Positions 7,545-47,169 of a stretch of DNA of 64,000 nucleotides are shown here, piece by piece (the first letter of the stretch is position 1; the number at the start of each line of letters is the position of its first letter). Source of the DNA: Chroococcidiopsis sp. CCMEE 29 (GTDB lineage: Bacteria > Cyanobacteriota > Cyanobacteriia > Cyanobacteriales > Chroococcidiopsidaceae); NCBI RefSeq assembly GCF_023558375.1, contig NZ_CP083761.1, positions 5,535,001-5,599,000 on the forward strand. Reading direction: 5' to 3'. The notes below the pieces were generated by a model. It saw only the letters and a list, made by a program, of their open reading frames with translations, searched no databases and was not told the DNA's origin. Both the position numbers and the translations under genes were made by a program.

Positions 7545-8030
7545 CTACGGTAACTGTTGCTTCACATCTGATGAATTAATCTTGTCTAAATTATTTGGCT
7601 TCACAGTCAATGTGACATCGCGTACTTTAACGATCGCTGTCGAGTCTGTTAGCTCTGTTGCAATCTCCCAACAGCCACTAGATTTATTTTCCTCACCTTT
7701 AAGTTTGACTAAGGTGAAGACATCACCCACTTGGCAACAAACTTGAGTCAGCGCTAGGAACTTTTCTACGCTGCTTGACAATCTCTTTGGCAATCCGACC
7801 GAGAGGGAACATTGCCATTAGCTGTTTATATGGCTTTGTCCCATACTTGTCGCTGCTCTTCAGCATCCTTTAAGCTGGCTAGAGGTTTAACTTGCTCTAA
7901 CTTAGTAGGTAGGATTTGAGCAGGAATCGTTCTCAAATTTCCATTTAACTAATTTGCTTCATTTAACTAGTTTTGAGAATGAATCGTTCTCGATTGTGGC
8001 AAATTTTCTACCACCATCATGACTGCAAAA
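7545..8030 (-). pseudogene. Fossil of the unknown four-copy family (copy 2)
   Basis: Decayed copy of the same gene as at 46162-47169. Read on the minus strand from about 8030, the translation contains MVVENLPQSRTIHSQN, then two stops, then RTIPAQILPTKLEQVKPLAS, LKDAEEQRQVWDKAI, a stop, and TANGNVPS. A frame change leads into an open 82-codon tail (CQVGDVFTLVKLKGE to DKINSSDVKQQLP) matching the carboxy-terminal piece of the 46 kb copy. At least three stops and one or two frameshifts rule out a product. The parallel order of segments in both places shows they are copies of one ancestral gene. Confidence 0.65.
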
Positions 8031-42588: not shown

Positions 42589-43800
42589 CTAATGAAAAGG
42601 ACATTGCTTTGGTTGTGAATTGTTAAGAGTAGACCCAATGGAGAATGATTGTTTCCTGTTCCATCCTTTCCAAGGCACAGGCAGTTGAAAAAAATTGGGT
42701 TTGAGGCAAACATTTTGCATCTCCTGATGAAAGACTTCCATTGTGGACGCAGAGAGCGGTGGCACGATTCTGCCCCAATCTGCAGGCACCATGCGTCCAG
42801 CCTCGGCTTCTTGGTGCCAGTGCCGCATGAACTGAGCGGACGCTGTGTGATGATCGGCGATCGTCACGCCACACGTTGTAAATGAATGCAAAACGGCTCG
42901 ATTCAACTCAATCAGTGCTCGGTCCTGCCACAGCGATAGCTTTGACCGAATATTCAACCCCATCCGTTCAGCGACCGTGGGTAAAAGGTTGTAGCGCTTC
43001 ACATCCCCAAAATTGCGAGCACCAATTTCAGCACTCATGTACCAACCGTTGAAGGGAGCACAGGAATAGGAGATGCCGCCAATCTCTAATCGCCAGTCTG
43101 AAACGGCAGGAAGCGCGTGCCATTTGAGTCCGAGTTCTGCAAACCAGTCATAATCGGGATGCGTCATCGAGACTTCCATCACAGCTTCTGGCGGTAGTTC
43201 AAACAGTTGCGGTTTCTGTCCGGGCATCTGAATAATCAACGGCAGAACATCAAATTGGGTTCCTCTTCCTTGCCAGCCGAAGTGTTGACAAAGTTCAGTG
43301 AGTTCCATTTGAGCAGGATCGCCGACGATCGTTCCATTGGGCTGACGATACCCGGCATAACGAATCAACTGGGGATTCCAAATGCGAATCCCTGGCTGTC
43401 CAGGTACGTCGGGCGCAAAGATACTAATGGTTGATCGAATATTCCCGCCGTTGGTCGCCTGTTGAATATGATCGACGATCGCGGCAAAGATTTCTTCTGC
43501 ACTGGTGAGATGGCGCAGATCTCGCACCCTCAGCGACTCCCAAAAGATACGTCCAATGCAGCGCATGCTGTTGCGCCAAGCCACTTTTGCACCATAAATC
43601 AATTCATCCTCGGTCTGCCAGTAAGTGCGCGATCGCCGATAGTCGTGATAAATCTCTACAAGACGTTCCTGCAACTGAGCTTCTGGAAGCGACTGCTCTT
43701 GATAAAATAACCGGAGATAGTCCTTCGCTTCTAGTAACAACATCGGCAGCGATTGTGCATCTTCAATTCGTTCACGGATCTGCTTATTACTGAGTTTCAT
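42589..43800 (-). CDS. nos: Bacterial nitric oxide synthase, oxygenase domain only
   Basis: A 403-residue haem enzyme oxidising L-arginine to citrulline and nitric oxide. The proximal haem cysteine is C81 in AWRNSMRCIGR. The arginine-binding region is intact: LEIGGISYSCAPFNGWYMSAEIGARN with E258. The pterin-side segment FMRHWHQEAEAGRMVPADWG and a late VPPLSASTMEVFHQEM follow. There is no calmodulin linker, flavodoxin or ferredoxin-reductase domain, unlike the long NOS described in Synechococcus PCC 7335, so a separate reductase must supply electrons. It is about 40 residues longer than Bacillus NOS. The ATG at 43800 lies 4 bases past the nitrate permease stop, so both are one operon. An upstream TTG (43842) is less likely. 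Confidence 0.93.
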   Translation of the reverse strand: MKLSNKQIRERIEDAQSLPMLLLEAKDYLRLFYQEQSLPEAQLQERLVEIYHDYRRSRTYWQTEDELIYGAKVAWRNSMRCIGRIFWESLRVRDLRHLTSAEEIFAAIVDHIQQATNGGNIRSTISIFAPDVPGQPGIRIWNPQLIRYAGYRQPNGTIVGDPAQMELTELCQHFGWQGRGTQFDVLPLIIQMPGQKPQLFELPPEAVMEVSMTHPDYDWFAELGLKWHALPAVSDWRLEIGGISYSCAPFNGWYMSAEIGARNFGDVKRYNLLPTVAERMGLNIRSKLSLWQDRALIELNRAVLHSFTTCGVTIADHHTASAQFMRHWHQEAEAGRMVPADWGRIVPPLSASTMEVFHQEMQNVCLKPNFFQLPVPWKGWNRKQSFSIGSTLNNSQPKQCPFH

Positions 43801-43804
43801 GATG

Positions 43805-45322
43805 TCATGAGGGATGTTTAGTGGAAGTGACTGCCGCTTCAAGAAAGTTTGTCGCAGAGGAACTCTGAGGTTCTTTTAAGAAAAAAGCACATAAGCTGGC
43901 ACAAATTAGAGCCGTAATGCCCATGCTGTAAAACAGTGTTTGAGCATTGCTGAGGCTGTAGACCAGCAAATAAATCACGCCGCCGACATTGCCATAAGCA
44001 CCCACACTTCCCGCGATTTGTCCGGTCGCGGACTTGCGAATTAATGGCACGATGCTAAAGGTTGCTCCAGCTCCAGCTTGAACAAAATAGGCGCAGAGCA
44101 TCGTTACCCCAATTGCAACGGTGAGATTTGAGTGAGAATCAAGCTTGCTCATTAGCAAGTAGCCGATCCCAATGCCGATCGTTAGCCCTGTCATTGTCCA
44201 TTTCCGACTGCCAGCGCGATCGCTGATCAGCCCACCGCTAGGACGAGACACTAAATTCAAAACAGGATAAGCGGTTGCAACCAAGCTTGCCGTCACCGGA
44301 TTTAGTCCAAACGTTTGTTCAAACCAAGTTGGCAAAATGGATATCACGGTAATTTGAGAGCCAAAGTTTGTTAAATAAGTGAAATCGAGCAGCGCGATTT
44401 GCCGCATCTGGTAACGTTGGTTAGGTGGATAGTGCTGACTAGGTTGTAGAAAGTCTGAACTGAAAGGGTTGAGCGACCCTACAATTTCCCGATTGACCTG
44501 CCAAGCTTTGTAGAACTGAAATACATACAGTAGTCCCAGAAAGACGCAGATGAACTGCACTTGAACCCAATTCAAGAAGTTAATGTTGTTCTGAGCCAGC
44601 GGATAGGTCAGCAATCCTAGCGAAACGAGCAATCCTAAATCCAACAGTGTCATTGCCCAAAAACTGCGCTGGCTTGTGACTTCTAATCCACCATGTCGCT
44701 GAGGACGCTGGTACACTTCGCCAGGTGGAGTGTCTTGGGTGTAACGAAAATAAATGCTGCCGTAGAGAGTTGTTACGAACCCAATCGTGGCGATCGCAAT
44801 CCGCCAGTTCAATGTTCCACCTGTGAAATATGCGATCGTCATGGCTAGCACCGGCAGACAAAACTGAGAGGCTGCTGCACCAAAGTTGCCCCAACCGCCG
44901 TAGACTCCTTGCGCCAGACCAATTTCTTTGGATGGAAACCATTCTGCAACCATGCGAACGCCGGCCACGAACCCGGCTCCCATGATGCTGTTAATCAAAC
45001 TGCTCCAAACCAGTTGATTAAAATCGTGTGCGGTCGCAGTCAGCAAGCAAGGCACCACGGCGAAAACGAGTAATGCCGAAAACGTTAATCGAGGTCCATA
45101 GCGATCGAGTACTATGCCAATCGCAATCCGAGCGGGAATGGTGAGCGCCAAATTGCAAATTGCTAAGACTTTCAGTTGCGGTGACGTAAGGTGCAGTTCG
45201 CGCTGTATCGTTGTTGCAAAGGGAGCAAAGCTAAACCAAACCACAAATGAGATAAAAAAAGCGAACCAAGTGAGATGGAGAATGCGGTAGCGATCGCGAA
45301 ACGAGAATAAAGCTTGCAACAT
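43805..45322 (-). CDS. nrtP: MFS nitrate/nitrite permease (NarK/NrtP type)
   Basis: A 505-residue transporter with 12 transmembrane helices of the nitrate/nitrite porter family. Signatures are WFAFFISFVVWFSFAPFATTI in TM1, IGIVLDRYGPRLTFSALLV (A-motif), GAGFVAGVRMVAEWFPSKEIGLAQGVYGGWGNFGAA regions (nitrate signature and substrate arginine) and FGLNPVTASLVATAYPVLNLVSRPSGG, with the second arginine region. The loop between TM6 and TM7 is large and charged, as in cyanobacterial NrtP. Ribosome binding site AAAAGGAG precedes the ATG. It feeds nitrate to assimilation and here is followed directly by nos. No NtcA-type box could be made out upstream. Confidence 0.92.
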   Translation of the reverse strand: MLQALFSFRDRYRILHLTWFAFFISFVVWFSFAPFATTIQRELHLTSPQLKVLAICNLALTIPARIAIGIVLDRYGPRLTFSALLVFAVVPCLLTATAHDFNQLVWSSLINSIMGAGFVAGVRMVAEWFPSKEIGLAQGVYGGWGNFGAAASQFCLPVLAMTIAYFTGGTLNWRIAIATIGFVTTLYGSIYFRYTQDTPPGEVYQRPQRHGGLEVTSQRSFWAMTLLDLGLLVSLGLLTYPLAQNNINFLNWVQVQFICVFLGLLYVFQFYKAWQVNREIVGSLNPFSSDFLQPSQHYPPNQRYQMRQIALLDFTYLTNFGSQITVISILPTWFEQTFGLNPVTASLVATAYPVLNLVSRPSGGLISDRAGSRKWTMTGLTIGIGIGYLLMSKLDSHSNLTVAIGVTMLCAYFVQAGAGATFSIVPLIRKSATGQIAGSVGAYGNVGGVIYLLVYSLSNAQTLFYSMGITALICASLCAFFLKEPQSSSATNFLEAAVTSTKHPS

Positions 45323-45664
45323 GGTTTGCTCCTTTTGAAGGTTTTGTGCGATCGCGGACTTATGTGAAATTTTGCGATCGAGGCATCAGCAGGAGTGGGA
45401 CTGGGTGCACAACGTCCTTTCAGAATTTTTGCAACACAACCCAGAATATTTAAGTGATTCCTTCTTCCTCATTGTCAAACAGCTCATCAGTACTACTGTA
45501 AGCAAGCGAAATGCATCGTCAGGATAAATGACCTTTGCGCTGCTCTTACTGTATTGAAGTATTGGAGCCTCAACGAACTCAGCTGCGCTAAAGCTGCTGA
45601 AACTTGTGGGTTGACAGAAGGTAGAATTTCGTGTGACTCATACACTTTATAAAAAGCTCGATCC
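45323..45664. other. Intergenic region upstream of nrtP, no gene seen
   Basis: About 340 bases. HIP1-like octamers lie at 45350-45380 near the nrtP start. An IS6-like end is at 45426-45442. The remainder shows no credible gene. Confidence 0.4.
45426..45442 (-). repeat. IS6-like terminal repeat remnant (copy 3)
   Basis: TTTTTGCAACACAACCC, identical to the copy at 36013 and the inverse of 14461. No transposase adjoins. Confidence 0.4.
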
Positions 45665-46038
45665 CTACTTTCTCAATCGAAAGCGCATCGGCATTCCGTC
45701 AGGCGAATAAATCAAAAGGTTTTGCTGTAACTGTTGGAGGGATGAATCACCGTTAACCAACTCCCACTCGAAATAGCGTAGCAGTTGTGCTAGCATCACC
45801 GTTGCTTCTAGCATTGACAGATGCTCTCCCAAACAACGATGAGAACCTGAGCCAAAACTTTAGCAACAGCCCGTGCTTGCTGAAAAACCCTTTGATTTAA
45901 GCATAATTCTGCTACTGCAAAGGATAAAGTATGAGCTGTGGTCTCAGTATCAGCGATTAACATTGCAATAACTTCTGCTAGAAGAAAAGTACTGATGGAT
46001 TCAAGATGTTGGATCGAATCTTTAGGAGCGTGAAACAA
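45665..46038 (-). pseudogene. Cytochrome P450 remnant with internal deletion
   Basis: Two P450 pieces joined by a deletion and frame change. The I-helix (EVIAMLIADTETTAHTLSF) has the oxygen-activating A-x-x-T-T pattern. The haem-binding loop GSHRCLGEHLSMLEATVMLA holds the thiolate cysteine, and is followed by LLRYFEWELV and the end SPDGMPMRFRLRK at 45665. The K-helix ExxR and the meander between are gone, as is the amino-terminal half. No haem protein can form. A second, unrelated P450 tail lies at 63023. Confidence 0.72.
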
Positions 46039-46161: not shown

Positions 46162-47169
46162 TTATTCGGTAACCCCGTAGCGTTTCTCTAGGCAAAACAA
46201 CAAATCTTCGTCCAAGCTAGTTAAATTAGTCCGCTTGCTTAAGTCTTTTAGAAAAACTTTGGCTCCTTGCTCAAGCGATTCAACCTCTGGTAGTCGTCTT
46301 ATCCGTTTTAAAATCTGTGGCAACTTTCGTTCGTCATCCGCTGAGTTAATCTTGTTCAAGTTTTCTAGTTTCACAGTAATAGTGGCATCGAGTACTTCAA
46401 CAGTTACTGTCGAGTTCGTTAGCTCTTTTGCGATTGCCCAACAACGGTTATATTTCCTCCCCTCACCTTCGAGACTGGCTAGGGTGAAAGCATCACCTAC
46501 TTGGCAATCATCTTGAGCCAGCACAGGGGGCTTTTTTTGTGCTGCGCGACAATTTCTTCGATAATCCGACCAGAAGGGACTTTACCATTGGCTGCTTCTA
46601 TGGCTTTGTTCCATACCTGCCACTGCTCCTCAGCAGTCTTTAAGCGGGCTAAATACCTAGTTTGCTCCAAGTTGGTAGGAAAGATAGGAGCAGAAATCGT
46701 GCTTGAAGTGTCATCGAGCTGATTTTGAGAATGAATCGTTCTCATGGATTCCAGATTGTCTGTCACAGAGGCAAAACTAATCAAATTATCGCCGTGACGG
46801 CGACCATATCCAAATTCACGTTGGCAGTAAGCGTCAAAGTTTTTGTGCGTAGTTTTATACAGCTTTGGCTTCCGTCGTATTTTGGCAAGTGCTTCACCTA
46901 ACTTCATAGTATGCTCCAGAGGATATCTGCTTTATCTCCAATTCCAACTCATGGCGCTCGTGTTGTTCTTCTTGGCTGAGTGGTTCCGCTCGATCTTCTT
47001 GGGTGGGTGGTTTTGATTGTTTTGATCGATCTTTTTGGGTGGGTGGTTCTAAAATTTCTCCTTGAGCAGCTTCTACAGGTACGAATCTACTAGACTCGCA
47101 TAGAGAAGAGAATTCAGTAGCTACAAGATTTCGATCGCTAATAAGAGCTAGTGAAGAGTTATAGTTCAT
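46162..47169 (-). pseudogene. Unknown-family gene, best-preserved of four copies, frameshifted
   Basis: Three overlapping frames reconstruct one protein of about 330 residues. Part one (47169-46894) ends ELELEIKQISSGAYYEV. Part two (46907-46497) continues GEALAKIRRKPKLYKTTHKN, then FDAYCQREFGYGRRHGDNLI, FPTNLEQTRYLARLKTAEEQ and NGKVPSGRIIEEIVAQHKK. Part three (46524-46162) is CQVGDAFTLASLEGEG and KINSADDERKLPQILKR. The middle resembles cyanobacterial proteins with an FxxYCxxxxxxxRRxxxxLI helical motif and a KVPSGRIV step, of the ParB-like or DUF3102-like kind often on plasmids; I do not know the function. Two frameshifts disrupt it. It matches fossils at 2703, 7545 and 41285. Confidence 0.6.

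Follow-up and report, generated by a model that had tools for sequence, protein, structure and literature searches.

A cyanobacterial oxygenase-only nitric oxide synthase encoded next to a nitrate/nitrite porter paralogue and altered at the pterin site

Oxygenase-only bacterial nitric oxide synthases (NOS), such as those of Bacillus, Streptomyces and cyanobacterial cluster I (PMC6104048), consist of a single oxygenase domain with a haem-ligating cysteine and an arginine-binding glutamate, and they have no fused reductase. In SyNOS of Synechococcus PCC 7335, globin, oxygenase and reductase are parts of one protein, and the globin oxidises NO to nitrate (PMC6104048, PMC12922734). Sorangium-type NOS, in which the reductase is N-terminal and the NOS domain C-terminal, has been reported as fusions in Microcoleus and Crinalium (PMC3701330). 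On the side of transport, NrtP, encoded in the nirA-nrtP-narB operon, belongs to the NarK/NrtP family and bears the GGxGNxG motif. A solved relative of this porter is NarK of E. coli, a nitrate/nitrite antiporter whose structures revealed that Arg89 and Arg305 bind nitrate.

The window analysed here, a stretch of 64,000 nucleotides of Chroococcidiopsis sp. CCMEE 29 (genome G000), encodes a NOS and a NarK/NrtP-family porter next to each other (Table 1). The NOS protein of 403 aa matches the Pfam NO_synthase profile over positions 5-361 of 362 (E 1.2e-161), and its PF02898 score of 538.1 bits, against a curated cut-off of 22.7, corresponds to a full-length domain, which is the sole domain found in this protein. 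The alignment with eNOS (3e7s) has no large gaps, and both the haem-thiolate cysteine and the arginine-binding glutamate of a NOS oxygenase are present, as C81 and E258 (residues are counted from the ATG at 43800; start at the alternative TTG would place the beginning of NOS inside the porter gene). The dN/dS ratio of NOS between genomes is 0.16-0.33, which means that these genes are under purifying selection and indicates that they are functional.

In its domain content, haem cysteine, arginine-binding glutamate and lack of a fused reductase, the window NOS is like the other oxygenase-only bacterial enzymes. However, the members of that group which were checked keep the tryptophan that stacks on the pterin, while the window NOS has Arg344 and is accompanied by a porter that appears to be dedicated to it. 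With SyNOS it shares the property of being a cyanobacterial NOS tied to nitrate, but it has neither the fused globin nor the diflavin reductase by which SyNOS is defined, is only about 42% identical to SyNOS-type proteins and is distant from them in the tree. Sorangium-type NOS is also found in this cyanobacterial order, and in genome G338 it has a GAF neighbour like that of some of the NOS considered below; unlike the window NOS, this type is multidomain, forms a separate clade and has no nitrate porter nearby.

Table 1. Positions of the two-gene unit and of its notable codons in the window.
Feature	Position	Strand	Remark
Duplicated unit	42589..45361	-	Starts 39 bp before the porter ATG and includes the NOS stop codon; copy B in L003
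Oxygenase-only NOS	42589..43800	-	ATG at 43800; alternative in-frame TTG at 43842 possible
NOS Arg344 codon	42769..42771	-	Position of the pterin-stacking Trp (iNOS W457, human eNOS W447); gap-free alignment
NOS arginine-binding Glu258 codon	43027..43029	-	Aligned to eNOS Glu
NOS haem-ligand Cys81 codon	43558..43560	-	Aligned to eNOS haem Cys
NarK/NrtP-family nitrate/nitrite MFS porter, NOS-linked paralogue	43805..45322	-	TIGR00886 above cut-off; clade apart from housekeeping NrtP
Porter Arg360 codon	44243..44245	-	Counterpart of nitrate-binding Arg305 in the alignment to E. coli NarK (4u4t; overall match weak, E 2.4e-8)
Porter Arg65 codon	45128..45130	-	Counterpart of nitrate-binding Arg89 in the alignment to E. 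coli NarK (4u4t; overall match weak, E 2.4e-8)

The earlier note on this DNA had described both genes accurately, i.e. a complete oxygenase-only NOS with C81 and E258, separated by 4 bases from an NrtP-type permease. Its opinion that NOS is rare in cyanobacteria and that the oxygenase-only form is unusual did not hold. We found NOS in 42 of 389 genomes of the order, in 49 of 217 genomes of one family and in 17 of 386 genomes drawn from the phylum (13 of them above the cut-off). Many cyanobacterial NOS are long fusions, but the oxygenase-only form has already been reported as cluster I (PMC6104048), and both the occurrence of NOS in cyanobacteria and its single-domain form were known before.

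The porter (505 aa) scores 330.5 bits with NCBIfam TIGR00886, above the cut-off of 311.7. It bears both the two arginines, R65 and R360, and the nitrate signature motif, here GGWGNFG, although its similarity to E. coli NarK is only weak overall. Its stop codon ends at 43805, leaving 4 bases before the NOS ATG. As a member of the NarK/NrtP family with the GGxGNxG motif it is like the NrtP of the nirA-nrtP-narB operon; however, it does not group with the porters of nirA/narB operons. Instead, the NOS-linked NrtPs form one clade (support 100/99), apart from other NrtPs of the same genomes, in a tree that leaves out the later found porters of G898 and G851. Most of the other NrtPs examined in the carrier genomes adjoin nirA and/or narB, as is the case in G000, G326, G708, G720, G174 and G731. 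G000 itself has three NrtPs besides the two NOS-linked copies, and its assimilation porter is encoded in a separate nirA-nrtP-narB operon (G000:C1, about 4.81 Mb). Judging from tree position and gene context, the NOS-linked NrtP is a dedicated paralogue and not the assimilation porter of the genome. NtcA control of the units was also considered and rejected, as no consistent GTAN8TAC site was found upstream of them, while the housekeeping operon has near-matches.

The neighbourhood of NOS was compared at 59 cyanobacterial loci retrieved with wider flanks, a nitrate porter being counted when it lay on the same strand and within 3 kb. Such a porter accompanies 12 of 25 short-frame NOS genes and none of the 34 long-frame (multidomain) ones (Fisher p 4.6e-6, a nominal value, as the loci are related). 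The linkage of NOS to a nitrate permease, on which the earlier note had based its proposal, was therefore borne out, and nrtP adjacency, without which that proposal was to be given up, is indeed present in related strains. Apart from G000, the linkage occurs in 10 cyanobacterial genomes. NrtP lies upstream of NOS in G000 (both copies), G174, G326 (Desmonostoc muscorum FACHB-395), G708, G720, G731, G898 and G851, and G730 has a decayed NrtP remnant at NOS. In two genomes a porter of the E. coli NarK type takes the place of NrtP, upstream of NOS in G238 and downstream of it in G805. No NrtP or NarK was seen beside NOS loci of other phyla, retrieved with up to 6 kb flanks. All 12 linked short-frame NOS belong to one NOS clade (15 rows, support 86/57; inner 12 rows, 99/94), and the linkage on the NOS tree amounts to one gain and two losses, thus to few independent events. 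Clade genomes G798, G834 and G842 have NOS with no porter in the sequence examined, the contigs of G842 and G834 being short on one side. Among all these observations, the swap of NrtP for NarK appears to be the strongest single argument for a functional link.

We consider it rather probable that the two genes make up an arginine-to-NO/NOx unit with a dedicated porter of NOx anions. In this unit NOS would be reduced by a general cellular reductase, as no reductase is linked to it, and would oxidise arginine to citrulline and a nitrogen oxide. The latter may end as nitrite or nitrate, either by reaction with oxygen or with the help of the globins of G000, which are unlinked to the NOS-porter unit. 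The porter would then carry the resulting anion across the membrane, in one direction or the other, and a GAF protein might serve as a sensor or regulator of the unit. There is a precedent for such chemistry, as SyNOS converts arginine nitrogen to nitrate (PMC6104048). A dedicated nitrate porter in a NOS unit would directly link NOS to nitrate/nitrite movement outside the assimilation operon, and this bears on the role of NOS in cyanobacteria as well as on the question of why arginine nitrogen would be oxidised.

The GAF protein just mentioned, a small stand-alone one, is encoded between porter and NOS in G326, G708 and G720 (NrtP-GAF-NOS) and in G238 (NarK-GAF-NOS), and after NOS in G851 (NrtP-NOS-GAF). 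Related stand-alone GAF proteins follow the reductase-NOS fusion of G338 and the SyNOS-type NOS of G137. In 17 genomes, 7 of 8 stand-alone members of this family are encoded within 8 kb of a NOS gene, and the remaining GAF relatives lie inside open frames longer than 500 aa. GAF domains are common sensors of small molecules. One may thus suppose that the unit serves NO signalling, i.e. that small amounts of NO report arginine/nitrogen or stress status, that the GAF protein senses NO or nitrate, and that the porter is a regulated output and not a carrier of the product. The recurrence of a stand-alone GAF beside three NOS architectures (oxygenase-only, reductase-NOS fusion and SyNOS-type), nearly always close to NOS, would fit this idea. 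On the other hand, in G000 no GAF gene adjoins NOS in the window, and the distance between the GAF gene and copy B of the unit is 7.4 kb; moreover, the protein has no DNA-binding or output domain, and its best PDB relatives are GAF-like domains of plant MYC/EGL1 and no known sensor of NO or nitrate. On balance, we find a signalling unit rather unlikely. A role of the GAF protein as an NreA-like nitrate sensor found no support in Pfam or PDB sequence searches, and its AlphaFold model was unusable (pLDDT 37).

The second feature which sets this NOS apart is its pterin site. The gap-free alignment of eNOS PADWAWIVPP with PADWGRIVPP of the window protein places Arg344 at the position of the pterin-stacking tryptophan, a residue which is near-universal in NOS while not being part of the domain definition. 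Of 136 distinct NOS sequences, 126 have W at this position; the residues R, K, M or V were found only in the clade to which the porter-linked NOS belong (9 of 136), and one further sequence, a fusion, has Tyr. Four clade members found later have Arg as well. Among 83 columns conserved at 90% or more in other NOS, most of the clade changed only two, position 344 and a Gly at 58. The other catalytic and pterin contacts tested (C81, W253, Y254, E258, R262, W342 and F357) are all retained in the window NOS. The tryptophan is also retained in G730 and G731, outside the inner clade, although G731 has the porter and G730 its remnant; NOS can thus be linked to the porter without the Trp change. In G798 (Val), the tryptophan was lost separately on the NOS tree.

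What such a change may cause is known from mammalian enzymes. In eNOS, W447A abolished NO production and W447F lowered it with a rise in superoxide, while in iNOS W457F and W457A decreased NO synthesis 3.3- and 8-fold, respectively (PMC3795282). As Trp mutants are impaired in this way, normal NO synthesis should not be assumed for the window protein, and by analogy the loss of the pterin Trp casts doubt on its synthesising NO efficiently. This could be taken further, to an enzyme which is altered as such: an inefficient NO synthase that makes another product (hydroxyarginine, nitroxyl or superoxide/peroxide), or one that runs backwards and, supplied by the porter, reduces nitrite at its haem. 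The uncoupling or loss of NO synthesis in the eNOS and iNOS mutants, together with a substitution that is confined to so few conserved columns and to this clade, would agree with it. We nevertheless regard it as unlikely, since all other contacts tested are intact, an Arg side chain could still stack against the ring of a pterin or folate, and G730 and G731 combine the Trp with a porter or its remnant. A related reading is possible, though we put it forward with reserve: this clade of NOS may have abandoned the canonical stacking on pterin (Trp to Arg/Lys) and act with altered chemistry in a nitrate-porter unit, being pterin-independent or differently coupled, with nitrite/nitrate (or exchange with nitrite) rather than free NO as the output. 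Coupling in mammalian NOS is controlled by this Trp, and a clade most of which has lost it provides natural enzymes for probing the role of the pterin in NO synthesis. We found no earlier report of a link between NOS and a nitrate porter in the open literature searched, subscription papers being outside that scope. The new element is that an oxygenase-only NOS, in itself a known kind of enzyme, is paired with a dedicated nitrate/nitrite porter and has in most members lost the pterin Trp.

Returning to the arginine-to-NOx unit with its porter, we found a second NOS with an equal score in G000, and it belongs to a second copy of both genes (copy B, G000:C1, about 1.3907-1.3934 Mb). The two copies match over 2773 bp in blastn with 99.784% identity, 6 mismatches and no gaps; their porter proteins are identical and their NOS proteins differ at one residue. 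The flanks are unrelated on both sides, hence the promoters differ, and copy B is surrounded by insertion-sequence genes. The duplication ends with the last base of the NOS stop codon. Porter and NOS are thus, by all appearances, a compact, mobile, operon-like module which was copied exactly as a unit, and with the pairing recurring in 10 other genomes the linkage is evidently not a matter of local chance. The acetolactate decarboxylase gene downstream of NOS is real, and its pairing with NOS had been pointed out as unusual, but it is left outside the duplication and has no relative beside 15 NOS loci tested, including the second copy in the same genome; we consequently rejected it as a unit member and take the pairing to be incidental.

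The window porter is 87% identical to those of genomes outside the order, but 81% to that of one genome of the same family. It seems that the unit moves horizontally, so that the shared linkage may partly be due to hitchhiking. That porter and NOS only spread together by horizontal transfer, as a cassette of two functionally unconnected genes, as the exact two-gene duplication amid insertion sequences and the closer porter relatives outside the order might suggest, is nonetheless quite improbable to us, because NrtP was replaced by the non-orthologous NarK in G238 and G805, with differing gene orders, and because the linkage is retained across several families, remnant or loss being exceptional.

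Several minor observations concern the surroundings of the unit and its genome. Upstream of the porter, at 45680-45870 (-) of the window, reading by eye shows what is left of the C-terminal part of a cytochrome P450 (FGSGSHRCLGEHL). At 46162-46907 and 7652-8014 of the window and at L003:11889-12851 there are members of a multi-copy gene family (RTIHSQNQL / VWNKAIEAANGKVPSGRI). This family is found about 0.85 kb upstream of both unit copies, where it is only about 73% identical, compared to 99.8% for the unit. A globin gene occurs twice at equal scores, once per contig (G000:C1:3448803 and G000:C2:262806), and from this G000 may hold further recent duplications.

Other NOS architectures were encountered as well. 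In four cyanobacterial genomes (L057, L058, L163 and L166), a gene for a bestrophin-family anion channel lies directly after a Sorangium-type fused NOS, so that here, too, NOS is recurrently paired with an anion transporter. A Sorangium-type NOS of G819 (L286:5811-9440) is apparently split over three consecutive ORFs and has Cys at the pterin Trp position. At L059:6358-9621, on the same contig as L066 of a Candidatus Sericytochromatia MAG, NOS is fused to two cyclic-nucleotide-binding domains and a [2Fe-2S]/FAD reductase. Finally, G050 (L052:9889-10533) has an oxygenase-only NOS with a globin encoded separately after it, as if the globin-NOS pairing of SyNOS were present here in unfused form.
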